A stretch of 64,000 nt of DNA from Amyloporia xantha (taxonomy: Eukaryota > Basidiomycota > Agaricomycetes > Polyporales > Adustoporiaceae). A program made the translations under genes and the position numbers. The stretch is from positions 1,550,001 to 1,614,000 of the forward strand of contig JAYKKR010000004.1 of NCBI GenBank assembly GCA_036971615.1, given 5' to 3'. Below the pieces are notes generated by a model. That model was not told the origin of the DNA, ran no database searches, and was given only the letters and a program-made list of their open reading frames with translations. Below, one piece after another: positions 12,901 through 42,394 of the stretch (the first letter of the stretch is position 1; each line of letters starts with the position of its first letter).

Positions 12901-13035
12901 AAACGTCGTGATGAATGACAGATTGCAAAGCCTAATGGATGGCGAGGCATTATTATTATTATACATACAGCATGAGATTTATTGAAATGCATATAATTAA
13001 AGCGTAGAAAAGGAAACAATAGGGCGGAATATACT

Positions 13036-13414: not shown

Positions 13415-14281
13415 TCCGCTCTCCTTACTAAGTAATAAAAATTTCACCCATATCTCTCCCTATAGAGTAGGCTATAATGACTGAATGGGCTCCCACTCTT
13501 GCACAATGCAGGCGAGGAACGCTTGCGCTGGTAGTCCACGAAATATTAACCAGGCCCCAGTATGACCCGTCTAAACTGATCATAGGCGCAGCAAAAACCT
13601 GAGAAGTTCAACGACTAAGAGACCGTAAATAATTGAAGTCGACGAATAGAACATCTAACTGCGAAAATGTCTAAGTCAGTATACCAAGTATCGATATTGG
13701 ACGGACAAAATTGACCATAGACTTACTTTTCGGGATTGGGAGGAATCCGACAAATACCAGCGCGCTTCGATGGGCATGGCGAACAATGGGTCTTTACCAC
13801 CCACAAATACCGAGAGTGAAGATCGTTTCGCCTAGTTGCAACTTTTGCAACTCTTTCGGTCTTGTCGCTGCTGACTGCTGGTCAAAGCCGGCTCCGTGAC
13901 TCATGAGTGTCAGGGTCTTCAAGATTCAAGTCCTGCATCGTAGGCATTTTTTTCACTTGGAAACACGATAGGCTGAGGCAAAATTTAAGAGTCTCCGCCT
14001 GTCTTGATTGACCAGATTTCTTGTAAACAGACGGGTATTCATGGAATTTGATTCGGGATCGGCCGCGAGAGGAGCAGGCTTTGGCGCCTACCTTGTCGAG
14101 CCGTCTACGTCTACGTCTACGTCTGCACGAACTTCCGTGTTTCGTTTGACCACTCTACTTCCAGCGACATATTATAAGTATCTTCCTGTGCCCCGTAAGC
14201 GGCTCGCTACACTATCGTACATGCTCTGATCCATACACTTTGAAGGCTATTCTCGCTCTGTTGATTTCGTCACGCTGCGCC
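13415..14281. other. Gap between the KDZ element and the JmjC gene
   Basis: No convincing gene is visible. It contains a TCTACG-type hexamer microsatellite at about 14,104–14,127 and presumably the promoter of the downstream JmjC gene. A T7 run follows a weak B-box-like sequence near 13,945, but no tRNA fold is supported. Confidence 0.6.
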
Positions 14282-16933: not shown

Positions 16934-17129
16934 TATTATCAATGTAACACACAATTGTAGTTCTTGCTGTCTTCGCTATCATACTGCAATGGAGCGAGAA
17001 CAGTCAGTCATATTCACCGAAATCAAAATCATGCAGACAACGGACATGCATGATATCCAAATTGGATAAAGCAGTGACCGCTGTTCATTCTCAAGGTGTT
17101 ATCTTGCCATGCTCACCTCCTGTCTAGTC
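16934..17129. other. 3' flank of the JmjC gene up to the inverted-repeat arm
   Basis: Short AT-rich stretch with no gene seen. Confidence 0.5.
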
Positions 17130-19907: not shown

Positions 19908-20176
19908 AGGGTCAAACTGTGTGATTCCGTCGCGATTCGAGTGAAAAATAGAGTCGATTCTAAACCAAGAGTCAGTTCAGAATTTATTTGGACGACCTGA
20001 AGCCATAGCTACGAGCGTCGATCGACCGCCTCGCCTATTCCGCCTGTACTCTCCACCGTGCGGAGACACGAACACAATCACATCATTCGAAAAATTCACG
20101 GACGCCGCGATAAGACGATACTATCCTCGATTTCAAGACCTTCAGTTAATCAACGATGTTTTGAGATTGCTGCATA
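19908..20176. other. Gap between the left repeat arm and the RRM gene
   Basis: No gene seen. The end of the RRM gene just inside it differs from what the family usually shows, so a rearrangement border probably lies here. Confidence 0.4.
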
Positions 20177-22960
20177 TCAGATCAGCGGCGCGATACACAA
20201 AAGTGCCATTAAACGCACCAGATTGGCCATGAACTGCTGGAAACCAGGCTGAGAAGGCGGAGGTACCGAATTGATCCTGGAAGCCGGTGGCACTGACGCC
20301 ATCATGTGTTGCGGCAGCATGTTATAAGCAAGTTGAGGCATCAATTGCTGCTGCTGAGGTTGGGGCTGCCCATTCTGTTGCAGGAGCGCAAGTAGGTTCG
20401 CGGGAAGGTTCACTAGAGCAGCCGCATGAGGCTGTGCATGTTGAGGAGTCAAGGGTGGCGGTGACATAACAGAGTATGGAGTTCCACCCGCTGCAGCGGA
20501 AATACCATTTGGAGGAAATGGAGGATGTTGCGAAGGGAGTGGAGGCATTGGGGGTGGCTCATAGGAAGCATCTGAGCCCCGGGATTGTGGGGGCATTGGT
20601 GACATTGGAGGAGGTACTGAAGCGGATGCTAAATTAGTCGGCGCTCCTGTGCTATCTTGGAGATGTTTTAATGCTGCTAAAAGCTACTCAATCTTGGTCA
20701 GCGATTATCCATGAGATTTCATAGGGAGCTCACATGTTGGACTTCCTTCGCTTGTTCAAGCCGCTGGTCCACAGGCTATAAAAATGCGATCGATTTGTGA
20801 TTACGATTACGGGTAATATTGCTTACCGGCAGCGGAGAAGGCTGTTGGTTATATGGCAGATATGGCAGAGGGGACCCTGCTCCATAAGGCGGAGGTCCAG
20901 AAGGTCCGGGCGGGCCATAATCACTTTCACGCCCCCTTGATTCGAGACCGTCACTAAATCTACCACGGCGTCCACCACCCCTGCACCGATCAAGCTCGTC
21001 GTCATACGGACGTCCTCGGTCGCCATTCCTTTCCCACTCTCCCCTTCCTCTGTAATCCCAACCATCACCACCATATCCACCGCCCCTGCCTCTGCCACGT
21101 CCTCCGCGGCCTCCTCTACGCCCACGTGGAGGCTCGTCCCAGTCGCGCCTGCGATGGTAAGTCCTACCTTCACGACTGAAAATAAAGGTGAATTTTGGAG
21201 CTGCGTAGTACTAAGAAAGCACGCACAGCGGAGAGTGCCCTCGGTGATCTTCGCCATCAGAAGCAAGGGTGATTTCCATGACCCCATCTTGAAGGCCTTG
21301 GTGGCGTAAGTGGCTGAGGGCTTTCTCGCAAGCCTGGAAGGAATAGATATCAGGGTGCGTAATGCAACATTGGAAGAGCCCAGTTCGTGCTCACTCTGGT
21401 GCTATAGAGTTCAACGAGACATTGGCTGATCAACAGCGACATGATTAGCCATCAACCTTGTAAACTATCTTGGAGTAGACATACTCATCGTGATCAATTA
21501 TCGCTCTGACAGACTTCACATCTCCAAATTGTTGAAACTTGCGGCGAACTTCGTTACCATCAATAAGTTGACCAGAAACAGAGTTCTTCAATGTAACCAG
21601 TAAAGTGCCCTGGAGCTTTCATCAATGAACGAGATAAAAAACATTGGCCGTGCCATTGGAAGTCAAGCAGATAAGAATCGATCACTGACCTGACTCTTGT
21701 CTCTATCACCACTTCGTGTGCCATGGTCATCGCGAGGCAACGAGTAATGAACATCAATCTGTACAAAGACATGCTTGAGGCCCATTTTCATGATTCTCTG
21801 TGCCCATGCTTACCGGACACCCGCCGATCTCCCAGCCCTGAAGACGTTCTTTGGCACGTTCTGCAGCATGCAGATCATACTTTTTGTTCATGACAATCTT
21901 AGTTCACATAGGAAAAGGCACAATCGACTCGACTCACATAAGTCACAAACACCATGCCTCGATTTGCGATTAGATCGAAGAATGTGTGTATCTCGCCATG
22001 TTCCTTGAATAGTCGACGCACCTCCTCACTATCTGTCTCAAACTGCGGAGCACACATTGCATTAGCTTACGCATTTCATCAGATATCAAATTAACGGATC
22101 AGAGAACTGGGCTCCTTGAGAGCACAAAGAATGTATGACTTGCCTCGATGTTGCGGATGAATAAAGTACGACATGGGCGCTCTCGTCGGAGGCGCTCCTC
22201 AATGATTGAATTATGCACTTTATCATTCCTTTCACGACGTTGACCCTGCTCAGGCAGTCGGCCACCAAAACCACCCTGTCCGAAATTCGAGCCCGAATCA
22301 TCTGACAAGAAAATCGGCGATTGTGAGAATGTGAAGTCAGGAATACTGCTCCGGAAAAGGAATGAAGACTGAGCACGTGGGATTGCCTCACTGCAACAAC
22401 ATAGTGAATTGGTTCTAGAGCACTAAAACAATTCTAGCAATGACGTGAAAGCACACGGCTACAACTCTGATGGCAGCGAATAATCTGGAGAGCCGATTTC
22501 GTTGGCTGCAGAAAGATGAACAACCTCACACCATGAAGGACGATAGCCTACTCAAACCTGACATACGAATTACTCAGGGAAGCATCTCGTGTCCGACGGA
22601 CCTCAATTGCCGAAGCACCTGTAGCTCTAGCTGCCAACTCTAACGTGATGTTCAAGCGTACCTTCATAAACCTCATACCCCTGACTGAAGCGACGGGATT
22701 CATCTGGTGATGAGCTAGATTGATCAGGAACACTTGAACTGCAGTTGCCATTCAGATCGAAAGGATGTTGCCCAAACCCGTTGTTGAAGGGGCCGCCTCT
22801 TCGAGATGATTGATTTTCATACATACGTCCATACAGGTGAAGACGATTCATGTTCGGAGGTGGTTTTTCCTGCGAGACGTGTCGGTCGAGGATCAGTTGG
22901 GATTCGATGATATGCTCGATAGTACCAAAACAAAGCTTAGACGAGATGAAGGCATTTGAG
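20177..22960 (-). CDS. RNA-binding protein with two RRMs, RGG region and Pro/Gln-rich tail; ends possibly truncated
   Basis: Minus-strand exons read through several short introns. They include AIPRAQSSFLFRSSIPDFTF, then RPCRTLFIRNIE / FETDSEEVRRLF / DLIANRGMVFVTY (first RRM with RNP1-like RGMVFVTY) and LQGTLLVTLKNSVSGQLIDG with VRRKFQQFGDVKSVR (second RRM). These are followed by an RGG/RGR-rich segment and a Pro/Gln-rich tail with a QQQQ run. The intron after RNIE has a GCAAGT donor (GC–AG); others are GTGAGT or GTAAGC. The layout resembles Mei2-like RNA-binding proteins, which act in RNA turnover and development. The interior is intact. The N-terminal exons fade out near 22.95 kb, and the last residues (VRLMALLCIAPLI) look like read-through into foreign sequence. 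I therefore suspect truncation at both ends. Confidence 0.65.
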
Positions 22961-24009
22961 AGTGAATTCAACCCTACGCAACCCCCATCAAAAATGATAG
23001 TGGCAGTCACGTGCATGTCGTAGCACCGCTAAGTCCCACTAAAGACAAACGTGTTGAAATGTCCGGCATAACCTGGTGGCGGCAGTGCAAGCCCCAGGCG
23101 TCCCTGAAGCAAAACTCCTTCTGGAGTTCTCCAACCGCGCTGTCGGGAAGGTGGTAACCTGCTGAAAGGCAGCGCGCACAGTCTCAGCAGTCGTGGCTTG
23201 GTATGTCCCGCTCCACGTATCGTGGAAGCATTCGCGCTTCCCGAATCCGAAGGATGGGCGATCGGCGACGAGTCTCTCGCTACTTTCGGACCTGCCGTCG
23301 AAGTCGAGAAAGGAATTCTCGCTATGTTCGATCGTCGAGGTGCCCAGCAACACACGTGTCGCAATCAGGTATGTCAACGTTGTCGGCGGATTGCCTACTG
23401 AGACTGAAATAGATTACAGAATCGCCCTACATGTCCTTTTAGAAGTACATGTTGAACGGGAACGAGGCACGACAGCGCAGCATACGGACTTTCTTCCAAA
23501 GTATCCGACTTAACGATGCAAACTGCCTAATGATACACGGCCGGATCACAAAGGTAGATTTGAGTCCAAACTTTAGAAGAGGCATCGCTGACTCGGAGTT
23601 CTGTTGTTAATCAGATATTGAGCATGCCGTCGGAACAAATTCGGGGCAGGTGGAGGGGGCACGCTTCGCGCGAAGGTTCGAAGAGCGTAACTACACGTCG
23701 AGGCGACCTTAGTCAAGGAGGAGAGACGGGTAGAGGAGATCACGTTTGAAGATATCGAGCCCAAGGCCTGGCACCTACGTGCGGAGGAGCGTTCATACAC
23801 GGGCATGAAGCGTCTGCTCGGGGTTTAGCGAAGAGTCAAGAACGACCAAACCGGTTTCACCGTCCGCTCCAGTCGTCCCGATATTGTGGCTGGTTCGAAA
23901 CTCTCGCAGGCCCGCACCAGCCTCCAGTCAGAGCAATCCCACTTCCAAAACAATCGTGCAGGATATACGGCATGGATAGATAGCCCCACACGTCCTCTGC
24001 TCTCCCAGG
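22961..24009. other. Unassigned sequence between the RRM gene and the RAT1 fragment
   Basis: Short open frames exist on both strands (for example about 23,198–23,401 plus and 23,039–23,377 minus), but none shows a domain or coherent splice pattern I recognise. It probably contains further gene debris. Confidence 0.4.
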
Positions 24010-24708
24010 CGTGGACAATCAGTCGTCATCGTCGCTGGTGATGGGCACCTTTCCCCTTAATCTTGAGCAAGCGATTGATGATTGGGTGTTTATGATTTTC
24101 TTCGTTGGAAACGACTTCCTACCTCATCTTCCGTCGCTTGAGATCAGGGAAGGTGCAATCGATACACTGCTCAAGATATGGCGAGATGAACTGCCGAGGA
24201 TGGGTGGTTACCTGACGAATCATGGGCCGGTAGAGCTTGCCAGAGCAGAAATAGTTCTTGAGGGTCTTGCCGGACGCGAAGACGATATCTTCCGCCGCAG
24301 GCGCGAATGTATGTCTTCTATTTTATGACTTGTGTACTTTGTCCACCTTTATTCCGTAGCCGAGGAACGCCAGGAGCAGAATGCGAAGCGTCGTAAGATC
24401 GAGAAGGATGCGGCTACAGGTGGTGCAGGGCCTTCGTCCTCTCTGAATTTGACAGCTCCTCCTGTTGCGCCTTCAATGTCGTCTGCTACTACTACGCATC
24501 CACTTCCTGCTCGACCCAGAAACGACTTTTCCGCGAAAGCAGATAGCATTGACCTCAGTGGCCCGAAAACTGCTGAGACTGCCATGCATGCGCCCACAGC
24601 AGCCCAGGCATTGGCTGGTTCCAATCGTGATGTCGTCGCGAACAGGCGTGCCATACGTATGGCGAACAGTGTCGTACGTATCCAGCATACTCACGACTGT
24701 TATGTATG
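24010..24708 (+). pseudogene. RAT1: Fragment of 5'-3' exoribonuclease RAT1/XRN2
   Basis: The first exon piece reads [40 protein letters not shown] and GGYLTNHG, the conserved nuclease core of the XRN2/Rat1 family, including the GND block of the active site. A GTATGT…TAG intron (about 24,309–24,359) joins it to EERQEQNAKRRKIEKD, the Lys/Arg-rich linker typical of Rat1. Family members have roughly 900–1100 residues; only about 200 are present, with no N-terminal half and no C-terminal part. Rat1 degrades RNA in the nucleus and helps terminate transcription. This piece cannot encode a working enzyme. Retention of the intron points to copying or breakage at DNA level. Confidence 0.85.
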
Positions 24709-25099
24709 ATTGATGGATGTGTATCGCAGAGGGAAGATTATGCTTTGCGTGCAACCAGCGGACGTCGACGCTCTCCACCTTGTCAAATGGCGTTCGCATC
24801 AACAAGACGTAGCTGCTGTAGCATTCTACCATAGTGTCTATTCGATCAACATCGAAGACGCAGCTCATGTTTTGGATGGAGAACCGATGCCTCAAACGGA
24901 ATTGCATCGCTTCAACCAGATATTCTTGGTGTCCGCTGTGTGTGTTGTCGAGTTTGCCTTCCTGATCTTATGATTTCACCTTTGTTGTTCGGCCGATTGT
25001 CGCTATCGACGTTGATGTCCCCGCTTCGCATTTGCTTCGATATCGGAAGACTCCACTCTAACGGTGTGGAACATCATCAACAATAAGCTGCCTTTCTAG
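24709..25099 (+). other. Unassigned coding-like stretch
   Basis: One frame reads GKIMLCVQPADVDALHLVKW, then VAAVAFYHSVYSINIEDAAH and VLDGEPMPQTELHRFNQIFL, which looks like protein-coding sequence from a gene I cannot name. It begins after a GCAG acceptor-like site at the end of the RAT1 fragment and stops near 24,970. Confidence 0.4.
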
Positions 25100-25677
25100 T
25101 CCCACACGACCTGCAAAGATGTGTGTATTCGGCTACCGAGGCTCTCTAGCGGAACTGCGGCCTCTGGCAAGAATTCTAGCACACAGCCAGTCGTGACCCA
25201 GGTCTCAGGATTGTCTGCTCATTCCAAGAAGAAGAACAGGCTGGGGAACCAGATTGGGGCTCTTACTCCACTTCTCGACTCGTTTGGCAACGCGAAGACT
25301 CTCATCAATCCTAATGGGTCGCGCCATGGTCGTTACCTCTAGCTGCACTTCAGTGAGTGCGGCTGATCAATTCGGCGAAGATCCTCATGTTCGGCCTCGA
25401 CAAGTCCTGTCTGAACCGTCTCTCATACGAGGAACGAACGTATCGCGTGTTCTACCAATCGTTGGCTGGAGCAACTCTGGAGGAGCGAGATCGGTTCCAT
25501 TTGGAGGATTCGTCGGACTATGCTCTCCTCGCCTCCTCTGGCTGCTACCGATTACCTTCTGGCCTGTTCAGTGACGACTCCATTGCCATGGACGATTTAC
25601 GTGCGGCAATGAAACCCTGGGCTTCAAATCCAAGCACATCTCGTCCGTCTTCAGCCTTCTTGTGGCTATTTACCGAC
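25100..25677 (+). pseudogene. Fragment of a chitin synthase with myosin motor-like N-terminus
   Basis: Readable pieces are LLDSFGNAKTLINPNGSRHG, then AKILMFGLDKSCLNRLSYEE, RTYRVFYQSLAGATLEERD and DYALLASSGCYRLPSG. These match the myosin motor-like domain at the front of fungal class V/VII chitin synthases, whose C-terminal membrane domain makes cell-wall chitin. There is a premature TAG at 25340–25342 and a frame change just after it. The nucleotide-binding loop region upstream is degraded, and the whole synthase domain is missing. Coding similarity ends abruptly at about 25,677, where EDC4 sequence begins. Confidence 0.8.
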
Positions 25678-26342
25678 GGTCAGTGTGCCTCCACCCAGGC
25701 TGAAGACACCCCCGTCAGAGGAAGTCGAAGGCGAGCGTAGTCGGGATGAGAGCGGGCGCACCCAGAAGACAAGGGGCTAAGAATACGAAGGGGAAGAGCG
25801 TCGGATGGAAGGACAAAGACAAGGATGACAATGGCAAGGAGAAAGAAGCGAGAGGCCGTGGAAGGGACGCCGCAGTTATCAACGAATCGCCCCTCGGTGC
25901 TGCATTGTCTAAGGAGATCAGGAAAGTAGAAGAAAGTCTCCACCCGCGTATTGGCTTATCGGCAAGGAGCTCGACGAGCAACGTACGTATGATATTGGCT
26001 TACCCGAACACTGTTCCTGACTATTGCTTCTCAGACCAACGTTTGGAGGAGGAGGCTTGCGCAAATGAGCAGGCAGCTGGCTTCGTCCGTCAAGAGAAGA
26101 CTCTGAAACTGATGTTCACGGAATTGACGAAAAGCCGCGCGCGCGTCGTCGAGATGGCAGTCAAGTCCGCATTGCAGAGTTCGGTTCTACCTTCCCTCGA
26201 GAATATCACAAAGGCCGAGGTGAAGGCTGCAAGCACGCATCAGCTAACTCTTTCATCATCAGAAGTGTTCAGGCTTAGGCAATTTGGGATCTTGAGCTCG
26301 ATCCTGAGCCTCTACTGTTCAAGTCTGTTGGTGAAGGTTTGA
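25678..26342 (+). pseudogene. EDC4: Fragment of the mRNA-decapping enhancer EDC4-like gene
   Basis: Starting directly at the chitin-synthase junction, the frame reads SVPPPRLKTPPSEEVEGERS, a Lys/Asp-rich stretch (GWKDKDKDDNGKEKEARGR), PLGAALSKEIRKVEESLHPR, then RQEKTLKLMFTELTKSRARV, VVEMAVKSALQSSVLPSLEN and ITKAEVKAA. This is the conserved helical C-terminal region of EDC4-like proteins, which scaffold decapping factors in P-bodies. The WD-repeat N-terminus and the final part are absent. One short intron (GTACGTATG…CAG, about 25,982–26,036) is retained. Similarity fades after about 26,245. EDC4 assignment is from motif memory. Confidence 0.7.
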
Positions 26343-26714
26343 AGGCCAAAACCTACGGAATATCTATGTAGGCTTGTATGAGATCGAAGGATCATGTGGT
26401 CCCGTGAGTGTTCTGATAGCTTTCATTTTGATAGACTTCACAGACGTTGTTTTATTTGCAGCTATATTGTCGTGGTGAAGGTTGGGAAACCTACGGAACG
26501 TACAAAGCCTGGCAATCGTGTAAAATGCGACAGTTGAATCCTCATATTGCAGTACCTCAACCGAGTTCACTTGGACACCTCCATGTCGCCCATGGAGTCG
26601 GAGATCTCGGCTGGATGGTTGTCTATCTCCTTTCGTACGTCTGTGCATGGGTTTACGAAATATGGGCCGAACCTCATTGTGAAGCCGTTTGAAGTCTGCC
26701 AATTTATAATCGCA
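26343..26714. other. Unassigned spacer before the FAS2 fragment
   Basis: An intron-like GTGAGTG…TTTGCAG segment occurs at about 26,403–26,460, with a short coding-like stretch after it, but I cannot assign a gene. It ends where FAS2 similarity starts (LDKVLRKWDQGHWGAPEQRQ). Confidence 0.35.
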
Positions 26715-29700
26715 CGCTGTACGCTAGGTTGGATAAGGTCCTTCGCAAATGGGATCAAGGGCATTGGGGTGCTCCCGAGCAACGGCAGAAGTTGGCCTAC
26801 GTCACTCTCGTTGAACTGGTTGCCTATCAATTCGCGTCGACTGTACGCTGGACGAGATCCAGGACGCTTCTTCACTCGCTACGACTTCGAACGCTTTATA
26901 GAGATAGGACATTCCCCGACGCTCACTGGTATAGCAACGAGGGCTCTGAAGGCAAAATACAAAACCCGAGATGATTCAGCAAGTCGCGTTCGTGCCATTC
27001 TTTGTCATGCGAAGAACACGAAGGAGGTATACTATCAATTCGAAGATGAGCCTGAAGCCCCCGGAGTCGATGTCCAAACGGCAGACGCGACATCGGTTGC
27101 CTCCATTCCATCAGCTACTTCCCCCGTTGCTGCGCCACCTACGCCTGCCCCGGCGCCGGCGTCTACGGCAGCCGCCAGTGTCGACGATATGCCGCTGAAG
27201 GCAATCGAGATCCTGAATGTTATCGGCAAGTATACGTCAGGCCTGGTGGGGCGCCTTGTCGGCAGCAAAATGCCCGGCGGATTCAACATGTCGTCAATCA
27301 AGGCCCATTTATCGAAAGCGTGGGGTCTAGGTCCTTCTCGTGCTGACGGTGTACTTCTGCTCGGCACGACAATGGAACCACCCAAACGTTTATCCTCAGA
27401 GGCGGAGGCTTGGCTTGGCTTGACTCTGTTGTCGCTATATATGCTCAGCGCGCCGGCATCTCTCTGGCCTCAGGTAGGAGGAGGAGGCGGCAGTGGTGAT
27501 CCGACGATGAATAGCGAGGAGTTCTTGAAATTCCAGGCCGAGCAGCAGTGGTTTGCGTCTCAACAAGTTGAGCTCTATTTGCGTTATCTCAAGCGCGATT
27601 CTCGATCTGGAGAGCACAAGTATGAGTCGGAGAAAGCCAACGTTGCTGCTCTGCAGTCTAGGCTGGATGCCGTCGCCCGAGAGCATGGCGATGTCTATAT
27701 TGACGGTATTCAACCTGTTTTCGACGCTCTTAAGGCACGACACTTCGATTCTTCGTGGAACCGGGTTCGTCAAGATGCGCTTCTCATGTTTTATGATATC
27801 ATATTTGGTCGCCTCACCACCGTTGATCGTGAGATCACAGCTCGCTGCATCGCAATCATGAACCGTGCCGACCCGGAGCTCGTCACCTACATGCAATGCT
27901 ACATCGATAGGTGCGACCCAACTCGAGGAGAGACTTACAAGCTCGCGAAGCAATTCGGCCAACAACTGATCGATAACTGTCGCGAAGTCGTAGGCCAGCC
28001 TCCTCTCTACAAAGATGGTAAGTGTTTCGTGTGTCAAATGGGTACATATTATAACCTGCTGTTATTAGTAACGTTCCCTACTGCTCCACATACGGAGGTC
28101 ACCGCCAAAGGCGAAGTCGTTTATTCAGAAGTTGTTCGAGAAAATGTTCGCAAGCTAGAGGCGTATGTCGAAGAGATGGCCAGTGGCGACACGATCTCAG
28201 CTCCCACGAACATCCAAAAAATTCAAGACGATGTCCTGAAATTATGGAACGTTGTGAAGTCGCAGCCCGAGATCAGCGAAGAACAGAAGAATCGTATTCG
28301 GGCGCTTTATGAAGGCGTAGTTCGATCTTTGCGCCCACGCCCAGAGTCTCGCTCGTCCAGGAGCGCCGCGTACTCGTCATGCCTCCTCTCAGTTCCTCCG
28401 TCCTCAGGTATCTGGCATTGCTTCTGTCACTGCTGATAAGGTTCCGCTTCTTCATTTGAAGCGTAAGGTCGGCACGACATGGGAGTATAGCAGCAATCTT
28501 ACCGGGGTATATCTTGATATCCTTCATGAAATTGCGACGTCCGGCACAACGTTCAAAGACAAGAACGCCCTCCTGACCGGTGTTGGCAAGGGCTCGATCG
28601 GCGTTGAAGTGCTCAAGGGCCTCCTTTCCGGTGGCGCTCACGTCGTGATAACTACCTCTCGCTACAGCTGATCCACCGTCGAGTATTACCAGGGCGTCTT
28701 CCAGCGATTCGGCAGCAAAGGCTCTGCATTGACTGTCGTTCCATTCAATCAAGGGTCGAAGCAAGATGTCGAGGCCCTCGTTGACTATATTTATTCGACG
28801 CTTGGCCTTGATCTCGACTACATCATGCCATTTGCAGCCGTCCCCGAGAATGGACGCGAGATTGACGGCTTGGACGACTAGTCAGAATTGGCTCATCGTG
28901 TCATGTCAGTGAATCTACTCCGTTTGCTGGGAGCTGTTAAGATCGAGAAGGCATCTCGCCACATTCTGACTCGACCAACGCATGTTATTCTACCGCTTCC
29001 GCCGAATCATGGTCTATTTGGCAATGCTGGTCTGTACTCCGAGTCTAAGATCGGACTGGAGACGTTGTTCAGCTGGTGGAATTCTGAGAGCTGGGGCGAG
29101 TATCTCTGCCTTGCTGGCGCCGTCATTTGCTAAGCACTCTACTTATGGCATTCAAATGAGACCGACGATTTTACCAGATGGACTCGTGGCACTGGTCTCA
29201 TGGATACGACAAAGTATAGAGTCATGGCGTGAGGACCTTCTCCGCAAAGGAGATGGCTTTCGACATCCTGGAATTGATGCACCCACTTCTTTTCAGCATA
29301 ACTCAGGTGGAGCCTATCTGAGCTGATCTCGACGGTGGAATGGATCGATTACCTGATCTCGCAGAAATTACAGCACGCATTCGCACGAATTTGCACAAGA
29401 AGAGCAAACTCCGCCGTGCAATCGCAAGAGACAATGCCGCCGATTTCAAAGTTGACAATGGTGTGGAAGCAGAGCGCGTTTTGCAGACAGTCAATGTGAC
29501 GCCTCGCGCTAACTTCAAGTTTGAGTTTCCGCCTCTGGAGCCATTGGAATTGCTTTTCGACATTTCAAAGTTACGGAGAATTCTGGATCTCGATCGGGTC
29601 GTCGTTGTTACAGGTTTCGGCGAGGTAGGCCCCTGGGGCAGTTCACGCACTAGATGGGAAATGGAAGCCCGCGGTGTATTTGCCATCGAGGGATGCATCG

Positions 29701-32413: not shown

Positions 32414-32713
32414 TATAGGAAGCAATATTTGAGCGATGCGATTTACAAGATCCTCGGACGTGAAGTCTCTTGGAATTTATCTCATATCTCTGGCTCATCA
32501 TGATCTAAGCTGCACTGCGTGGACTTGCCACTTACATCAACACACATATTGACCATAGCAATATAATCCTTCTTTTAATCACTGTTCTAGTAGAATGCTG
32601 TCCTTCCTAGGGTATATTGACTGAGAATTCCTCCCTCGATGTATGTTTACGACTAGAGCACTCGCGAACTGATGGAGTGTGGGTGCGCCCGAGTGATCTT
32701 TCCCTCACATCAA

Positions 32714-33752
32714 AAACCCGCAACCCCTCCATGCTCAAGTAAGTAGTCCTTAATGTCCATGTTCGTGCTCGCTGAGACGTTAGATAAGTTCATGTCAACA
32801 CCAGTCGTGTTCTGGTTTCTATACGCCGCCGACTAATCAACGGGGAAATCGGAGCTATGGTTCTATCGTTTGATTCACCACTCAGAACCGACTTGTGGTA
32901 ATTCCGCAGGAAGGGACTCTGCACGACTATCTTCGGCTATATTGGTCAAGCAGCGGAGACTAACTCTGCAATACGTCATGCATATGGAGGTTTTTCCTTT
33001 TCAGGCCTTCACCCCTACATCGATGGACGATGGGAACGATGCGTTGTATATAGTGCCTGATTTTATTCGTTCTCTGATATTTTGACTTCCAGGGCCTTCG
33101 AAGGGATAGTCGCTCCCCATCTCTACGGTGTCATATGATAGGTTCCTTCAAGAGACCGATTATTGTCGAGGAAATAGTAGGATAGGAGAATCTCGGCTTG
33201 GAGTACATATACAACAGCTGACGGATTTCCGCTCGACAGCGCAGGTGTAACATGTTCATCGCGAAAAGAGGCTAGAACGCCTCTTATGTGCAGCTGTGAG
33301 CAGTGTTTGAACTGTTTGCGCGCAGTCTGGTGAATTTATCTACACAGGGGAATATTAGGGCGACAGAAGGTGGCCCTGCCTTTTGGAGAAGAGGCAAATA
33401 TCGTCCCAGCGATCACTGACATTGCGCGCGGACTAAGCGTTAGTACTTGCAGTGCGATGGTGAGTCGCAATACTATCTGGGATCAGATGCAAGTATGATT
33501 TGAGGCATAGGCCTTGTTCCTTCTGCTCGAGCTTGTTTCTTCACCGCCACAAGGAGCTGAGATATTGGATGACTGCTATTGGCAAGCTACCCTGTCGCCT
33601 CTGGGCAAGCCGATGGGGTTGTGTGTACCAGTCGACGTGGAGAAGTTCACATAAGTGGCACTCATGACTAACAGGGTCCTCGACCTCTCATGCTCAAGTA
33701 AGTCGTCATTGATCCCACATTCGTGCTCATTGAGACGTTATATAGGTTTTTT
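32714..33752. repeat. Pair of ~80-bp diverged direct repeats
   Basis: Copies at about 32,714–32,795 and 33,672–33,752 share CATGCTCAAGTAAGT, a TTCGTGCTC block and GAGACGTTA in the same order. Both look like an exon end plus a short intron (GTAAGT…AG), so they may derive from one duplicated gene piece. Confidence 0.65.
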
Positions 33753-33811
33753 TGTCCCCACTTGTTGGCCGTGAGAGCAGCGCCCCATGTAGACGGTACG
33801 TACGGGTGTAC

Positions 33812-34085
33812 GTACGGGTGTTGCTCTTGCGCAAGCCAAAGTCAGGGGTCTCCATTTCAAAATTCTCACAGGAAGACAATTTACAAGGACAGTCTTTGTT
33901 GACATTGTTACTCAAATCTTGGTTAATTCTATGTTTCTTGAGTTATCAGACACCCTGTCGGATCCCCAGTAGCTAGCGACCTCGCCAACGCGAAAATGAC
34001 ATTGCGCTTCAGGAACCTCACCCTGCAAAGTTTGCTCAGGAGCGAGCATGTATTCGATCGAACGAGTCAATCTTGGAGAATCACA
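33812..34085. repeat. Left copy of a ~270-bp diverged direct repeat
   Basis: Shares ordered blocks with 37,923–38,195, including CTCGCCAACGCGAAAA, GACAGTCTTTGTTGAC-like and GTTTGCTCAGG, in the same orientation. No coding function seen; it could be an old LTR or MITE copy. Confidence 0.7.
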
Positions 34086-34261
34086 GCAGTCACGATCGCG
34101 TGGAGACATTGGTACGAATCGGACTGGGCGATATTGGAAAGGTAGGACGCCAGTCCTTCTAGCTCCTTTGGTTTCAGGCTGATCTGATGTTGGCATGCTA
34201 CACTTGCGTCGTGCTACAACGACTCATCGGCAGCGCCAAGAAAGTCAAGGGTGATGTCTGA

Positions 34262-36045
34262 ATGTTATGGCTATCGTTGACTTTATCCGGAGGCTCGCTC
34301 TTAGACAAGTCTATGCGACTGGATATGTATAATGCGCTCCTCCGCAAGCTCCAGGACGCTATCGAGCATCCATGTCTGTCAAATCGATGGTTCAGCATGG
34401 CAGAGCAAGCGATCAACACCGTTTACGCTCTTGGAGAACGCCCGGATATCCTGTGCGATAGTTCGATCAAGACCCTTACTAGGCGCGCATTTGACCAGCA
34501 ACGCCGTTCTAAGACGCCTGAGGCTGATGGACCGGGTGCCATGAATAGGTAAGGTTTCAATAGACGAGTCCGAGCTGTCTGGTGCACCCAGTCAGGCGGA
34601 CGACGAGAAAGACACCGGTGACGCACTCACTCTCAGCCAACCTCCCTTTAAGTCGGACATGTTGCTATCAAGCATATCATCTACTTCGAGCTTGCGGAGA
34701 GGGGATGGAAAAGATAGAAGCACGAAAGACTCTCGCTACCTACTGTTCCCTAGATGCCGATTCCTACCGTATAGCGGAGAAGATTATCGCTGGCCGAAGC
34801 AGCCCCACACCGTTCACTTGGACATCGGGGGCTCGCAGAATCGAGAATGACTTCATCCAGTCGCTGGTAATGCTGAAGACGAGATCGGCGAGAGAATAGC
34901 TTCTGTCAGGGAGACAGAGTTATTGTGCGGTCCCGATTCGCTCTTGGCCATCTATCGCCCTATGGTGGTTCACATATGTGGTAGTCCGCACAAGTTCAAG
35001 GTAAGCTGCAAAAGGTTAAATCGACCATAGACACATTTGACGCGCCAGCAGTAGAGATCGAACGTTGCGGGCTGCAGCGACACTAGCCTTCAGCAAATTC
35101 CTTTGTGGGAGCTCCCGCTTCTGCGATCAACATCGCGCCTTGCTTCTCAAGATTCTCAAGATTCTCGAGACCTCGGTATTATTCAGCCATATTGTGGATG
35201 AAAATAGCGACGAATTGTACAAGGGGCTTTCGGATGCCGATCTCGTCGTCAAGAAAACTTATTTGATGGTATTGACTCACCTTATTCACAACGGTATGAA
35301 CAGAGTGAAGGGTCAGCTCGGGGAGATGGAAAAATGCTTGGAAGATGAAGACGAGAGAATTGCCTATCTCCTCAAGCTCTTCTTCTCGGACTTGTGAACC
35401 AAGGAGGATGCTATCTACAACCATGTGCCTGACGGTAAGTTCATAATCGAAAGTGTACTTGGTATGCAATATATTGAACTATGTCGTAGTCATCAGCCAT
35501 CTTTGGGTTGGCTCACATGCGGTGGAAGAGCCAATTTCTAAAGTACGATGCGATATATTTTCACGTTCATTGGAAAGGTACGTTTGTGGACTGTCTCAAC
35601 TCAACGTCGACTAACGCTGTTGCAGAAGAAGCAAATAGAAAATATCGATGAAAATTTCTGCCAGCATTTCCATCTTACAGAAGATCCTCACCGGTGGCGG
35701 GACATCGCCTTTTGTCTATCTCTACTTCCATTCAAGTTGGAGCGCTTAGTCAAGAAACTAATCGAGGGTCTTGCAATTCTAGTTGCACGAGGAAAACGAC
35801 TTTGCTTGCTTCCAAGAGATTCTCACCAAGGTATACCTTATAGCAAGTAAGATGGGTATCTCATGATGACGCGTTGCTTTCGTAGGCACGATCGAATGAG
35901 CCTGCGAACAAGCCTGACGCGGAGCTCAGCGGATTTGAGACCGTGAGCCGTTGTTCGCTGTACCTGACAGCACTTCTGAACGTGCTAATGATCTACTAAA
36001 TCCTTGAGGAACACAGGCGGCAGGGTGAAGATCACGAGTTCGAGA
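34262..36045 (+). pseudogene. CND1: Condensin complex subunit 1 (CND1), fragment
   Basis: HEAT-repeat coding pieces are clear: MAEQAINTVYALGERPDILC; GNAEDEIGERIASVRETELL and DSLLAIYRPMVVHICGSPHK; then RAAATLAFSKFLCGSSRFCD; NSDELYKGLSDADLVVKKTY and MVLTHLIHNGMNRVKGQLGE; and DIAFCLSLLPFKLERLVKKL. These match the central and C-terminal region of the non-SMC condensin subunit Cnd1/Ycs4, which compacts mitotic chromosomes. A premature TGA follows KLFFSDL near 35,395–35,397. Frame changes occur around 34.6–34.9 kb and 35.6–35.9 kb. The N-terminal half is missing, and the sequence passes directly into homoserine dehydrogenase at about 36,045. Short introns are kept. Confidence 0.88.
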
Positions 36046-36735
36046 AGCGAGTATATCCTCAATTCTCCAAATCGGAGATCGATGTCCTTACGCCAAATAA
36101 GAAGGCTTTCTCTACCGACCTCTCGCTTTATGAAGACACCCTCTCCGCAAGTCTGAGTGGTGCCCGTTTCTTGAACGAAGCGACAGTGGGTTCTGAGTCA
36201 CCCTCATTTGCACTCTCAAGGTTTGGTTGCCACTGGCGGCGAAAAGTTAAGCGTCCTATCAAATTAGGAGTGCCGCAAGTACATCGCAACTTGTACTTTA
36301 AGATCACCAGAGAAGGATTATCCGGTGCGCCATCCTCCAGGTTCACTAATGTCTCAAGTCTCATAACGGAACAAGAAACCCCGCCCGAATGATGACCTGA
36401 ATGGAGCTGATATGGCACACGAGCTCACCATTCTGTCCCGCTGCTTTCGTCACTCCTGACCGCTTTGAAAGACGGGTACCAATCTGTCAGCACTACGTCT
36501 CTGGTACCTCCCGAGCTTGAGGGTGTAGCGACGGGTGACGAATTCATCAAGCGACTTCCAGACTTCGATGCACAGCTCGACAAGATACGCACGGGCGCCT
36601 ACAAAAAGAACAAGGCCCTTCGCTTCGTCAGCGTGATCGACGTGGAATTCGGACTCAAAGAAGTAGATTTTCAAGCTATCTCGATGACCTATCTCATGTC
36701 AACGCGAGGCGTCCGCGGCCATCCAAACTTATGAC
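36046..36735 (+). pseudogene. Homoserine dehydrogenase fragment
   Basis: Immediately after the CND1 fragment the sequence reads TPNKKAFSTDLSLYEDTLSA, GARFLNEATVGSES, a degraded stretch, DDLNGADMAHELTILSRC, then VPPELEGVATGDEFIKRLPD, FDAQLDKIRTGAYKKNKALR and FVSVIDVEFG. This is the order of fungal homoserine dehydrogenase (threonine, methionine and isoleucine synthesis). The nucleotide-binding N-terminus and the last part are missing. A stop (TGA near 36,390) and several frame changes interrupt it. It is a relic joined to a different gene, not a working enzyme. Confidence 0.85.
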
Positions 36736-37329
36736 GGCGATCTACGACCTGGCTCACATCGTTATTGCGAACAGACCATCAAGATCGTTAGCCAAGCGGG
36801 ACTGCCAATTTATTCCTCAGCTCTAATTGCGCTGATCGTTGGATTACACAGGATGAAATCGAGACCAGAGTATCGCGATCTATTCGACTTTGGCCTAGAG
36901 GGCTCCGACGCTTCAAGGGAGCGCTATTGTCTCCGGCATGTGCTTATGATATCTTATGTTCTCTATCTTGACCGAAATTACCATTTTGTTTCGTTATGCA
37001 TGCCATGCTGCAATACGCGCATGTACCTCGATCGAGTCGGGGGACCGGTGCAATCGATACCTAAGTCGATACACGCAGCATGCTCACCGTCCTGTTCAAA
37101 CGTAAGTCACACTGCCGCTTCTATAGGAGGATGGTTACAGCACCAGCGAACCTTCCGGCTGTCATGTGGCAGCGTACACTTTCAACGAGTTCCATCGTCA
37201 ACTCCTTTTGATCTCTAGCCAATTTCGTTCCATCGCCGGAAACCAAGTCCCTCTTCTTTCCTTCTTCACCGTCTCAACGTTAACCATGTCAACCACTCCC
37301 CACTCATTCAACATTGCTGTCCTGAAGCT
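36736..37329. other. Unassigned spacer with coding-like scraps
   Basis: A short frame reads MKSRPEYRDLFDFGLEGSDA near 36,853, probably another gene scrap, but I cannot identify it. Nothing else is supported. Confidence 0.35.
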
Positions 37330-37915
37330 TATCCTTCGCAACAAACGCTTTGCTTACGCCTCAGGTGGGGCCTATCGATGGAAGGCCCGCCCTTGCTTCG
37401 TGACCAAAGCGGATCGACAAGGCTTCTGGGCTGCGCCCCTCTGTGGTGCAAGACAGTTGTTCGAGGGCGTATATGGCCCGAAAGAAAATGTAAGTTTAGG
37501 ACCGCGTTCGAGATGCAATACGCTGATAGTACAGTAGATGAACATGGGATCTTGGACGCCTGTAGATTTCCGCAACACATTGGTCCCTATTCCTACTCAT
37601 CCATCCGCAAACGTCGCACCGTTTGTGCTGCCTTTGCTCTACACTCCGGAACACGAAATCATGAAAATCAAACCATGCTACATATGGACGAAGAACCCCG
37701 GAGAGTACTTGTCGTATAGGGCGTTCCGCGAGTGGAGGGTCCAGATGGCGAGACAGGAGAAGCCGGTGCATTTGGACGAGATCTTCGATCTCGACACGGA
37801 GCGAATCATACAGCTGCGTCTGCAGCACGCGAGCTATGGTATGTCGCACTATCGCTATTCGATGCTCGTGGACTTTGACTGACATTTTGCGTAGGTGGTA
37901 AACGATAGATACCGT
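37330..37915 (+). other. Unidentified coding-like fragment
   Basis: One frame from 37,538 to about 37,840 reads TPVDFRNTLVPIPTHPSANV, then FVLPLLYTPEHEIMKIKPCY and FREWRVQMARQEKPVHLDEI. It ends at a GTATGT donor near 37,840 with a possible TAG acceptor at about 37,895. Codon use and the intron suggest a real exon of an unknown gene, again on the plus strand. I do not recognise the family. Confidence 0.45.
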
Positions 37916-37922
37916 CTTAGTG

Positions 37923-38195
37923 TAGATGTTCTTATGCAAGCCGAAGCCAGAGGGCTCTTTTGCTAAAACTCTCCAGAAAGACAAACTACAAGGGCAGTCT
38001 TTGCTGACAATGAAATTTTAGCCAAATCTTTGTTTCTCGCGTCGTCAGACCCCCAGTTGGACCCGCGACCTCGCCAACGCGAAAACAAGACTGCCCTTCA
38101 GGAAACTCACACTGGGAAGACTCGTTGATGTTTGCTCAGGCGCGGGCATACATTCGACCGAACGAATCCAACCTTGGAGATCACAGCACGCAAAC
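37923..38195. repeat. Right copy of the ~270-bp direct repeat
   Basis: Same orientation and block order as 33,812–34,085, with about a quarter of positions changed by eye. Together the copies bracket the CND1 and homoserine dehydrogenase fragments and the unidentified piece. Confidence 0.7.
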
Positions 38196-38639
38196 TGTGC
38201 CTTGTAAATCTCTCAGTCCCCATCAGACAAGTGAATTGCGCTGAGAGATTCTGATACGGTCAAACACTGTCGAGCTGAATATCGTGCGACTTGGGTCCCG
38301 CTTGAAAAAGGTGCTAGAAGAGTAGTTATTTCTAGGTGAACATTTGTGTAATATTAGGCCATGGAAGAGTTCTTATTTTTGAAACCCCAGCATCTTACGA
38401 AAATCCTGGCAAAACAATTTGCTTCGTCCACGCATTTTCAGCAAAGATATTCTACTTTTGCTTACACAATCGATACAATGTCCCGACCTATAGTATAATT
38501 CCTCGTACCCCTCTAAGGATATAGTTGATTATATTACAAACTTCCGCAGAAATGAAAGCGCACCATCCTGGACAGATAGATTGATAGTCGTTTCAGCTTC
38601 TAGGATATCCACGTTGTCTTCCTTCTTGAGAGCCTGTGA
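38196..38639. other. AT-rich spacer
   Basis: No gene or repeat recognised. Confidence 0.5.
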
Positions 38640-41493
38640 ATTGATTAGCAAGTGCGCCCACATAACAGTAGATGACAATACTCTGCGTCAACGTCAACTT
38701 CGTCGTCAGAGAAGTCAGCAGCGTACTCCGCCTCGTGCACTACAGTCCCGCTAGAGGTACTATCAGGCGCTGAAGTCGCAGACGGTGCGTCACCTGCTTC
38801 CAGTGCTGATTCAGATGACAGGGAGGGTTCTGTGGCATCGCCGCCTGTTTGCAATTGCGATGCTGATGCTGACTCCACATCTGTCGGGGCCGATTGTTTT
38901 GCACTGAGGCGCTGACTTCGTGGACGTGTCAGGGCCGCCGATGACGATGCACTGCCTGTAGTCTCAGAAGTAGAGGAGCTTTTGGATGGTTCTTCGAGCG
39001 CGCCGAGTGGTAAGGATGGAGGTGCTAGTCCGGATGCTGCCAAGGCAGCGAGCATTCCTGACAGTCATGAGCTAGTCGGTAGAGAGCCTGTTACCCTCGG
39101 ACGAAGATAGTCGTGCAACGCCTGGAATGTAGCGATTGCATGAATTGATACCACAATATTGCTGAGATTCTTAGGGAGTCGTCTGCTGCGACCAACCGAA
39201 GGCGTAATTGGCGGGCGAGTAGTGATGGAGAACTCCGCTTGGTTTCTATGACGAACAGTAAGCACGATACAGAATGCATGCGAGCAGACTCACCATCTGC
39301 ACTCTGTGCAACTGTGACCACCTCGAACGACTCCATTCTTGTCAAGCTCTCCTGCAGTTTCTTGACAAATATGGCGAAGGATGTCTGACCGGTCGATGGA
39401 ACCTTGGTTCTTGGCACGGTTAACGCAGAAAAGAACATCTCTTGCCGACGGTCGATGCTCACCGTAGACCGCATATAATATGTTAAAGGTCCATCACCGC
39501 TATGATCATATGTCTTACCTTGCCAGCCCTCGTTTGATGTCATGAACTGGAGCAGACCATCAACCAGACCACTCTGCAGTAGCTCGAAACTAGACACATA
39601 GACACAGATGTATGAGCATTAGAAAACAATCCCGCGAGCTCTTCAAGAGCCACGGTCACGTCTTTTTCTGGGGCGGCTCGGTGTGTGAGCCGCCCAACAA
39701 GACGGCGTAATGTGGCAAATACGTCATCGGTCTCTGCCTCGTCGTCGCCACTAAGGTACCTGAATCGGATGACCCGGGCTCGCAAGGTGATCGCATCATC
39801 AGGCTCCAAGGAGAGAGAGGACAGCTTTTAAATCCAGGTATCGCAGCTGCCATGGCCGCAGAAATAGGCATATGAGTCGGTGTAATAAGCTCTGCCGGAG
39901 AAGGCACATCTGGGTAATCCTTATCTTTGTCTTTGTCCTTGGACTTGGACTTGGACTTGGTCGATGAGAGACCCCGAGATGACAACGCCTCGATCTCGTG
40001 CAATACCCCTTCACGCTTGAAAACTGGTTTGTACTCCGCTGGCATTTTATTGAGAAGCAGCTCTACCAGTTGAAGCGCTCCGATGACCAAAGTGGGATGG
40101 CCTTTCGAAGAGAGAATCGATGACGCGAAGCTCGCGACAGGGCCAGACTGGACAAAAGTTAGAAGCGACGCCAAGATTGACGGAAAGAACGAAACATACA
40201 GTAAAGACGCGGTTCAATTCCTCTCCATCGAGGAAGCTGACCGCTTTGAGCAATCCTGTGAGCGTCTTGACCCTCACCGGGTAATAACGCTAGCTGCATA
40301 GACATCCACCAGAATAGGCGCCATCAGATATAAGAATCTCCCAACAACTTCAGGCCGGGGCGGCATTAGCTCAGACACAAGACTGAGTGCTTCCTCTACT
40401 TGATCTTTGGGGCGATGAGCAAGATTTTCCATAATAGTCATATCCACAGGATCGCCACCAGGCCCAAGTTGTCCGTTAGCAGCGCGCCCTGCTCGTTAAC
40501 TGCTTCGCCTGTTGGATGCAACACCCCTGTGAGGATCTGATAGAGTGTATCAACTATACCGGCCTCCAGCAGGACAAGAGTGATCTTGGGGCTTGCACAC
40601 GTAGCAGTGGCTAATGCTCGGAGTAACAGAGTGAATGTGCTCGCTGAAATCAGAGGCGACCCGCCTGAAGGAAGAAGGAGTAGATTTACGGCCCTGATTA
40701 GGTCAATATCGACCAACACTTCCAGCTTCAAGTTGTCAGGAGCGGCATGGTAGTATGCGTCTACAACACGAATAACACAAAGACACACATACCCAACGGG
40801 GCGTTGATCCGCATAGCCCAAGCAATTGCGAATAATAGGCCAGACTCCTTGAATCATGGGAAAGTGCTCGGGAGAGACATTGCGACAACAATTCGTGGCA
40901 GCTTGTAGTGCGGTTCGCTGAACCGCGATGAAGAAATCGAGATAGTTCAAAAGAGCAGCTAGGCCGTCTTCTCGAACGATGGAACTCGCGGATTCTTCTG
41001 AAGATTTCTCCAATGTCTGCAAATAAAGCAAACCTTTCCAAGACCTGTAACGAAAGCTGACAAAGAATACCAGACTCACACTCCGCGTCTGCTCCGCCAA
41101 CTTGAAGTCGATGTACGAGATCTCGATTAGTTTGCTACAAAGAACAGGAATTGCACCGTGGTAGACGACAGTGTGGGCGACGCCCGGTAATGTTTCCATC
41201 AAGTTGACGAGACATCTGCAAGCCAGTACTTGAGCCTCAAGATTTTCATCGCCTTAGTATGTAGCACCGCCTGAGCTCATGGCCAATGCATCCGCCAACG
41301 CAGCATCTTCGTCGGCCTCCTGCGCCGCATCGTCGTCCGCTTCATCGGGGTCACCGCTGGTGCCATCAAGTAGTATCCGGACGAGCTCGCGTATGTAGGA
41401 TTCAACCTGGAAAGAACCAGCCAACGTGTCTTCCGTGCTCGTACCCTGCATGATCGAACCACAAGCGGATAAGATCCAATCGAACAGTTTCAT
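38640..41493 (-). pseudogene. UFD4: HECT E3 ubiquitin ligase UFD4/TRIP12-like, N-terminal part only
   Basis: Minus-strand pieces in order: TEDTLAGSFQVESYIRELVR; an acidic stretch with DEDAALADALAMSSGG; DENLEAQVLACRCLVNLMET; GVAHTVVYHGAIPVLCSKLI; AALLNYLDFFIAVQRTALQA; ASPKITLVLLEAGIVDTLYQ; VRVKTLTGLLKAVSFLDGEE; IGALQLVELLLNKMPAEYKP; EPDDAITLRARVIRFRYLSG; FAIFVKKLQESLTRMESFEV; SIHAIATFQALHDYLRPRV; and a Ser/Ala-rich acidic end. This is the armadillo-type region of Ufd4/TRIP12 ligases. There is an early stop (TAA) just after GGATY near 41,254. Several exons need frame changes, and the catalytic HECT domain is absent because the fragment ends at about 38.64 kb. Short introns are retained. It abuts a degenerate repeat at 41.64 kb. 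Confidence 0.88.
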
Positions 41494-41945: not shown

Positions 41946-42394
41946 CGTTCCAGAGGAAGACTGGGAGCGAATCAACCTTCATCTGACCTGCCAAGCATTG
42001 GTCCGACCAATATGCAGGGTTATCTTCGATATGCATACCAATCTCAAGCAGTCGTCGTCCGTCATTATTACGAGAGAAGCAGTAGTGGGTGCGGTTCTAG
42101 TCAAGCTCCCGAAGTTGGCTACTACGCTGAATGACCTCAGAGTCATCTGCACCCACACCGACAATATTACCATCTCATCTGCATGGTCATGCGGGCATTC
42201 GGGCACAGGAGGGCATGACGGTCTTGTGCTGAACACCGAAGCGCTCCCCGCATGAATGTAGCCTCTTCTTTTTGCTACCAATGGTGAGTTCTGTTTTAGT
42301 CCCACAAGTCGAGCGCGACGAGCAAAGTCCATGGCCAAACTTCGGGCATGCAGATATTACGAAGTCTCGCCGTCGAGACCATAAACAACCACCA

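Follow-up and report, generated by a model that had tools for sequence, protein, structure and literature searches.

Inverted-repeat-bounded loci of dead host gene fragments in the genome of Amyloporia xantha

Introduction

How do broken pieces of about ten conserved host genes come to lie side by side between long inverted repeats? The question is raised by a 64,000-nucleotide window (C34:1550001-1614000) in the genome of the fungus Amyloporia xantha, in an assembly of 46.8 Mb and 60 contigs (labelled here C1-C60). Such pieces make up most of a 28-kb stretch with long inverted repeats at both its limits; we refer to this block, with its arms, as E1, and to a neighbouring locus (C34:1447203-1538278) as E2, with others lying on C59 and C42. 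A reading made from the letters of the window alone had taken the block for serially captured host DNA, perhaps a new kind of gene-collecting element, matching no fungal class familiar to its author.

Plants provide well-known cases in which host gene fragments have been captured in large numbers. One report describes such capture as not typical of the mushroom Helitrons it studied (PMC4289320).

Here, we describe E1-type loci as layered and roughly datable captures in a fungus, which suggest exchange with an essential gene after capture; at one of them, E2, captured pieces are brought together with a resolvase-like gene and a recombinase gene. With the layered captures and the E2 genes, the way in which such loci acquire host DNA can be tested in a genome of small size. 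Judging from the relatives of the block on other contigs, collectors of gene fragments appear to be recurrent and able to trade DNA with living genes.

Results

Composition of the E1 mosaic

The patchwork of dead pieces occupies window positions 20086-41439, close to the limits first proposed (20177-41493), and draws on RRM, SMC2, RAT1, EDC4, myosin-chitin synthase (CHS), FAS2, RICTOR, CND1, homoserine dehydrogenase (HSD) and UFD4 genes. All eight gene fragments named in the sequence-only reading are present, and it had missed SMC2, RICTOR and the C29-family repeated sequence. The long inverted repeats that it placed around the mosaic are real: 17124-19912 and 42391-45176 align over 2,790 columns at 99.2% identity. 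The features of the block are as follows, with parent coordinates and identities in parentheses.

17124..19912, plus strand: left inverted-repeat arm of E1 (copies at C34:1447203-1450882 and 1534618-1538278)
20086..22943, minus strand: RRM protein gene fragment (parent C1:1782478-1785562; 81% then 73%; 200-base internal deletion)
23069..23796, plus strand: SMC2 fragment (23366-23796 to parent C45:930055-930499, 68%)
24044..24668, plus strand: RAT1/XRN2 fragment with intron (parent C2:352540-353162, 95.7%)
24673..25109, plus strand: EDC4-like fragment 1 (parent C12:3038384-3038818, 85%)
25102..25669, plus strand: myosin-chitin synthase fragment 1 (parent C7:484546-485114, 82%)
25671..26230, plus strand: EDC4-like fragment 2 (parent C12:3037176-3037735, 87%)
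26295..26655, plus strand: myosin-chitin synthase fragments 2 and 3 (C7:480989-481299, 78%; C7:479873-479921, 90%)
26658..32409, plus strand: FAS2 part of the fused fatty acid synthase gene (parent C60:463288-469293; 88% then 94.7%)
32407..32670, plus strand: myosin-chitin synthase fragments 4 and 5 (C7:478827-478874, 87%; C7:478540-478751, 79%)
32726..33748, plus strand: RICTOR fragments 1-3 (C58:189347-190229, 70-83%; parent matches PF14663)
33824..33999, no strand assigned: C29-family repeat piece 1 (71% to C29:303260-303426; no name assigned)
34093..36053, plus strand: condensin CND1 fragment (parent C55:148663-150711, 79%; parent matches PF12717)
36054..36648, plus strand: HSD fragment (parent C55:615250-615958, 78-80%; parent matches PF03447 and PF00742)
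36731..36889, plus strand: RICTOR fragment 4 (C58:190351-190510, 77.5%)
37195..38203, no strand assigned: C29-family repeat pieces 2 and 3 (C29:303475-304191, 78%; C29:303170-303254, 77%)
38509..41439, minus strand: UFD4 fragment (parent C20:253867-257138, 92.5-92.7%)
42391..45176, minus strand: right inverted-repeat arm of E1 (99.2% to the left arm)

From left to right the interior runs RRM (minus), SMC2, RAT1, EDC4, CHS, EDC4, CHS, FAS2, CHS, RICTOR, C29 family, CND1, HSD, RICTOR, C29 family and UFD4 (minus), with CHS fragments 4 and 5 resuming a piece that is split by FAS2. Stretches of the ten named genes, the C29 family and casein kinase 1 (CK1) align to 19,373 of its 22,478 bases (86%). 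For about 14% no parent was found, and nine of the stretches left uncovered measure 100-773 bases. Rfam gave no match anywhere in the window at gathering thresholds. Eight of the ten named genes are in one orientation, where the earlier reading had counted six of eight.

Several parents were identified by matches to solved proteins or Pfam domains. The RAT1 parent matches solved 5'-3' exoribonucleases (best E 6.7e-66), that of UFD4 matches solved Ufd4 (E 6.9e-43), and the myosin-chitin synthase parent has Myosin_head, Cyt-b5 and Chitin_synth_2 domains. The names RRM, SMC2, EDC4 and CK1 are presumptive, coming from reading and from characteristic motifs; for SMC2, CK1 and EDC4 such motifs were used because Pfam gave no match to the open frames tried, as was also found for UFD4. 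The EDC4 and chitin synthase pieces have other genomic matches, some nearly as close as the parent: EDC4-like fragment 2 matches C12, C29 and C23 at 87, 86 and 85%, and 24669-24937, in the region of EDC4-like fragment 1, recurs at C34:1542199-1542467 (96%). Part of the SMC2 fragment (23069-23653) is 70% identical to C59:1505944-1506587, and the UFD4 fragment has a single 339-base deletion with 15 bases of overlap.

Mapping the fragments placed their parents on C1, C2, C7, C12, C20, C45, C55, C58 (also C15) and C60. CND1 and HSD are the only two on one contig, at a distance of 465 kb, and these separate parents speak against an ordinary decayed chromosome segment, the outcome that would have undone the capture proposal. 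Misassembly would be an unlikely source of the block, given the graded decay of the pieces and the diverged relatives on other contigs.

Related loci on three contigs

A search for blocks with the same arms located two further inverted-repeat-bounded mosaics with which the arms are shared in part, E2 beside E1 and another on C59. The 91-kb E2 has arms of 3,689 aligned columns (97%) and contains about 15 kb of the E1 block twice, in opposite orientations around a 17-kb centre and at 99.7-99.8% identity to E1, with the UFD4 piece on one side only. The C59 locus (C59:1489612-1527667) lies within the last 140 kb of its contig and has arms of 2,941 columns (99.8%) around 32 kb. Arm identity within a locus is thus 97-99.8%, whereas between C34 and C59 only about 0.5 kb (73-74%) and a few short stretches align. 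E2 and C59 have the order GEN1-SMC2-FAS2-RICTOR in common, some of the C59 matches being short (GEN1 0.5 kb, RICTOR 46-47 bases). Pieces of FAS2 and SMC2 occur in the C34, C59 and C42 loci and RRM pieces in those of C34 and C42; CK1 pieces lie in the arms, amounting to some 1.1 kb on C59 and to 73 bases on C34. Relative to the interior, the C59 arms point outward and the E1 arms inward, so rearrangement has occurred. Further arm copies on C2, at C59:1593685-1596477 and on C35 (69%) lie near the starts of contigs, which may themselves be redundant with C59.

The two E2 arms end together; the E1 arms end elsewhere and at differing points. No target-site duplication was seen at the arm ends of E2 or C59, and for E1 none is definable. 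Two insertions served as a control, with flanking repeats detectable by the same reading: an LTR-type insertion in E2 (C34:1456163-1485912) with terminal direct repeats and 4-base flanking repeats, and, within its left repeat, an insertion that we take to be KDZ-like, with 7-base flanking repeats. The coding content of the LTR-type insertion amounts to a weak zinc knuckle match.

Mode and timing of capture

The RAT1 intron (24309-24359) is present in E1 at the same 51-base length as in the parent, with eight changes; the FAS2 intron shows the same read-through in the E1 copy and the parent; and alignments of the CND1, UFD4 and FAS2 stretches to their parents contain no gap longer than 30 bases. 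Introns were therefore retained, as had been claimed, which rules out capture through spliced mRNA. Thirteen fragment junctions were read by eye, seven between different genes and six at internal deletions. At six of the seven inter-gene joins the pieces meet with at most a few bases shared or added, and one EDC4/CHS join has 64 unassigned bases; a target-site duplication was seen at none of the 13.

The pieces diverge from their parents by 4% to 32%. Using open frames that we chose, changes at first/second codon positions are 3.9/2.4% for RAT1, 4.3/2.9% for FAS2, 4.4/4.0% for UFD4, 8.6/5.6% for EDC4, 11.8/10.4% for CHS, 11.0/13.2% for CND1, 19.3/10.7% for HSD, 17.1/15.0% for RRM and 25.4/14.8% for RICTOR. 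Third positions have changed from about equally (RICTOR) up to some threefold more (FAS2, CHS), an excess that is expected when free copies are compared with constrained parents.

Pieces are also nested. In E1 the FAS2 piece (88-95%) is flanked by chitin synthase pieces (78-90%); on C59 a FAS2 piece (72%) contains a P-type ATPase piece (73-76%) that itself contains a piece of an AreA-type GATA factor (82%), the age order being weak there because the FAS2 and ATPase pieces differ little in identity; and on C42 an RRM piece (82-89%) lies inside FAS2 (66-75%), with an SMC2 piece further on. Kept introns, nested and interleaved pieces and graded divergence, together with the separate parents, support the earlier proposal that capture was serial and at the DNA level.

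Orientation was scored per piece against the SMC2 and FAS2 of its own locus, leaving out the C29 family, CK1 and the GEN1-like, JmjC and F-box genes. Eleven of 13 events agree (two-sided p 0.02) in a grouping made post hoc, namely ten pieces in E1, the ATPase and AreA pieces on C59 and the RRM piece on C42; for E1 alone the figure is 8 of 10 (p 0.11).

A dead FAS2 copy and its living parent

With the C59 copy as outgroup, changes specific to the FAS2 parent number 7/3/28 at codon positions 1/2/3, and those specific to E1 number 24/10/27. Positions 1 and 2 against position 3 give p 5e-7 for the parent and 0.07 for E1, and the two spectra differ (p 0.007). The parent is constrained and alive, and the E1 copy decays with little or no constraint. 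A frame change had led us to suspect that the parent itself is dead, which is ruled out by the intron that explains the frame and by the constraint on the parent. The outgroup copy differs from the parent by 21/15/33% at codon positions 1/2/3 and has eleven stops within one 515-residue match. C-to-T hypermutation (CpG or RIP-like) was considered for this copy and rejected, there being no strong context bias (12.5, 20.1, 20.4 and 16.2% before A, C, G and T).

Divergence along the E1 piece is uneven: identity to the parent is 96-98% at about 27.6-28.8 kb and 96-100% at 29.6-31.6 kb, with one window at 92%, and 88-94% over the remainder. Differences per 100 bases have a variance/mean of 3.51, against a highest value of 1.71 in 500 shuffles; those of RRM, UFD4 and CND1 are even and within shuffles. 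The longest identical run in FAS2, at 231 bases, does not exceed the shuffles (highest 256). These patches suggest that the piece, once captured, underwent gene conversion with the parent; alternatively, they could stem from more than one capture. A 200-base FAS2 deletion at 27225 in E1 is absent from the left half of E2, and thus postdates the duplication of the block.

Genes linked to the loci

Two genes lie beside the arms.

14052..16915, plus strand: JmjC-domain gene (PF02373, E 1.3e-6), its 3' end facing the outer end of the left arm
C34:1451099-1451887, beside an arm: F-box-LRR gene (PF12937)

The arrangement of the JmjC gene beside an arm is repeated on C59, with 74% DNA identity to C59:1492803-1495633. 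Between C34 and C59 its exon differs at 13/119, 14/118 and 42/119 of codon positions 1, 2 and 3 (Fisher p 2.8e-5, second versus third), and the F-box gene, over 789 bases with no indel, at 26, 17 and 54 of 263 (Fisher p 2.8e-6). The same test on the RICTOR fragment gave p 0.13, unlike both genes. Both arm-side genes retain their reading frame on C34 and C59, and these comparisons show them to be under purifying selection. The F-box protein has three relatives, one of them close (60%). The JmjC exon matches seven places, on C34, C59, C5, C29, C53, C33 and C2; those on C5, C29 and C53 are each 13.5 kb from C29-family sequence, and the C29 copy has no arm within 1.4 kb downstream.

The E2 centre contains a GEN1-like nuclease (Pfam GEN1_C, E 4e-27) that is open over 770 codons and matches the solved nuclease-like protein 6grb (E 8e-25), which we take to be Chaetomium GEN1. 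Under simulated neutral change the frame stayed open in 0 of 500 runs at 10% and 16 of 500 at 5%, figures that do not set its age in E2. Fourteen GEN1-like matches fall at about ten places in the genome. A tyrosine recombinase also lies in the E2 centre, with the motifs LLRSDELL, GTHSFRRGG and IVKYLISWND read in exons with plausible introns between them. One exon has 124 relatives, several labelled Tyr recombinase; those with names are from mushroom-forming fungi, the closest being Trametes and Ganoderma. A protein search with the read-through frame returned nothing, only the exon alone being productive, and Pfam gave no match. This exon has a single match in the genome, in the E2 centre; E1 lacks the recombinase, and none of its motifs turned up in the C59 stretches examined.

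Discussion

We lean, with confidence somewhat above even, towards placing E1 in a family of loci, few in number and old, that have inverted repeats at their limits, build up dead host gene fragments through recombination and are refreshed by gene conversion. Where the DNA breaks, either within an old piece or at the inverted repeats, repair would copy in parts of host genes on the basis of little or no homology, by microhomology-mediated template switching or filler-DNA repair, and repair of this type would give near-blunt, nested and interleaved joins. Through gene conversion, the living gene may later overwrite a captured piece, and the arms, converting one another, would stay alike; E2 probably arose by a recent inverted duplication.

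Random repair would not predict the co-orientation of the pieces and need not yield pieces of conserved genes, from which all the named ones come; old pieces of fast-evolving genes would escape searches, and the C29 family is without a name. Transposition could be the reason why loci of this kind are spread over C34, C59 and C42 and relatives of the JmjC gene over C5, C29, C53, C33 and C2.

The selected arm-linked genes in two loci, the sole genomic match of the recombinase exon in the E2 centre, its family labelled Tyr recombinase in other mushrooms, and related sequence on several contigs would fit a giant mobile element, its own genes being the arms with the F-box, JmjC, GEN1-like and recombinase genes and the host fragments being cargo in a Starship or Pack-type manner; E2 would be the fullest copy, and E1 and C59 decayed ones. 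We consider this rather unlikely, as the outer ends differ among E1 left, E1 right and E2, neither the E2 nor the C59 arm ends show a target-site duplication, E1 lacks the recombinase and the examined C59 stretches reveal none of its motifs, the C59 arms are reversed relative to the interior, and the C29 JmjC copy lacks an arm in the 1.4 kb downstream. A palindromic gene-collecting element with its own tyrosine recombinase and GEN1-like resolvase, F-box and JmjC helpers, sense-orientation capture of core genes and repeated host gene conversion is doubtful. Capture by a Helitron or Helitron derivative, later enclosed by inverted repeats, would account for multi-gene, intron-keeping and mostly co-oriented pieces like plant Helitron cargo, and Rep genes exist in this genome; yet none of the 45 Rep matches (PF14214) lies in C34:1.44-1.63 Mb, C59:1.485-1.60 Mb or the C42 locus, and both the nesting and the uneven FAS2 divergence are left unexplained. 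One report finds no tendency of Pleurotus Helitrons to capture host gene fragments (PMC4289320), and we judge this origin very improbable. Since no Rep gene lies near, the E1 ends are ragged, and neither the E2 and C59 ends nor the 13 junctions show a target-site duplication, transposition is not demonstrated; of the proposed new gene-collecting element, it is the collecting that is supported.

A passive graveyard – a heterochromatic region, e.g. near a centromere or chromosome end, where unrelated segmental duplications pile up with neither function nor machinery – is an unlikely account, though one to be taken seriously. Ragged duplications, nested insertions, repeat arrays, inverted duplications and the place of the C59 locus in the final 140 kb of its contig all suit it; the gene order common to C34 and C59, the pair of selected genes linked to the arms at both, and the recurrence of FAS2 and SMC2 pieces in C34, C59 and C42 and of RRM pieces in C34 and C42 do not. 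Inverted pieces of essential genes might also be a source of double-stranded RNA directed at the parent genes, to tune or attack them; in E2 some 15 kb of fragments is present in both orientations, and the named pieces are of conserved genes. Such a silencing role is scarcely credible, since older copies have changed by 15-25% at positions 1 and 2 (RRM, RICTOR), weakening targeting, and E1 has each piece in one orientation.

Comparison with known systems

As far as the loci on C34, C59 and C42 show, the earlier judgement that the block matched no fungal class familiar to its author holds. Plant Helitrons carry DNA-level pieces of several genes, with introns and mostly in one orientation. E1 resembles them in its intron-bearing, mostly co-oriented pieces of several genes, and E1-type loci differ in their long inverted arms, their nesting and the absence of a Rep domain, a RepHel result for the C34, C59 and C42 loci that is silent on non-autonomous copies. 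The known Pack-MULE and Pack-TYPE transposons are small, with defined ends and target-site duplications. Like them, E1 has captured host gene fragments between inverted repeats; here, by contrast, the arms are 2.8-3.7 kb long and 22-84 kb apart, with ragged outer ends that differ among copies, so that the arms are not demonstrably terminal, and no duplication was seen at the E2 and C59 arm ends or the 13 junctions. Starship elements are very large units with a tyrosine recombinase and cargo. The present loci are also very large, with cargo and (in E2 only) a tyrosine recombinase, but this recombinase is without a Pfam match and is central in an inverted duplication rather than at one end, a position that speaks against a Starship.

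Fungal DNA transposons carrying a TET/JBP dioxygenase have defined ends and target-site duplications (PMC12730594). They share with these loci a mushroom host and a captured chromatin-type gene; the words JmjC and jumonji are absent from the main text of their description (PMC12730594). None of the papers covered by our literature search brings together tyrosine recombinase, Agaricomycetes and Crypton, or JmjC, transposon, Agaricomycetes and F-box.

In primates, mosaic segmental duplications are patchworks from many places, and Y-chromosome palindromes have inverted arms that are kept alike. The present loci likewise juxtapose dispersed, intron-containing pieces of different ages, as mosaic segmental duplications do, between arms that are alike; they differ from both in occurring in a fungus, with selected genes linked to the arms and with fragments nested within one another.

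Copies of the nuclease gene and possible contig redundancy

The GEN1-like nuclease found in the centre of E2, the related mosaic neighbouring the inverted-repeat-bounded gene-fragment mosaic E1, has 14 matches at approximately 10 places in the genome (on C34, C18, C12, C5, C1, C26, C14, C45 and C3), which seems many for one genome. Matches between C12:3.06-3.14 Mb and C3:0.14-0.27 Mb run parallel with equal spacing within blocks, as do those of the starts of C2 and C35 to C59:1.59-1.61 Mb, and this arrangement suggests that the assembly includes redundant haplotype contigs.

Insertions, repeats and flanking genes

E2 contains an LTR-type insertion (C34:1456163-1485912), the left repeat of which is interrupted by a 17-kb insertion labelled KDZ-like by reading, with inverted ends of 169 bases and, also by reading, a 7-base flanking repeat. 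A tandem repeat with an 86-base unit is located left of the JmjC gene at window 13033-13377, and an inverted array of it lies at the opposite side of the E1-E2 spacer (C34:1545237-1545970). Toward the left of the window is a KDZ transposase (7583-8080; PF18758, E 1.7e-31), and to the right of the E1 right arm are two related fungal protein kinase genes (46965-48863, with a PF17667 match, and 52847-53665), 75-81% alike over two stretches. Near the right end, in a stretch of 36-40% GC, is a near-perfect inverted repeat (61911-62973) with 485-base arms that are 97% alike, a 12-base spacer, and a perfect outer pair of 55 bases.
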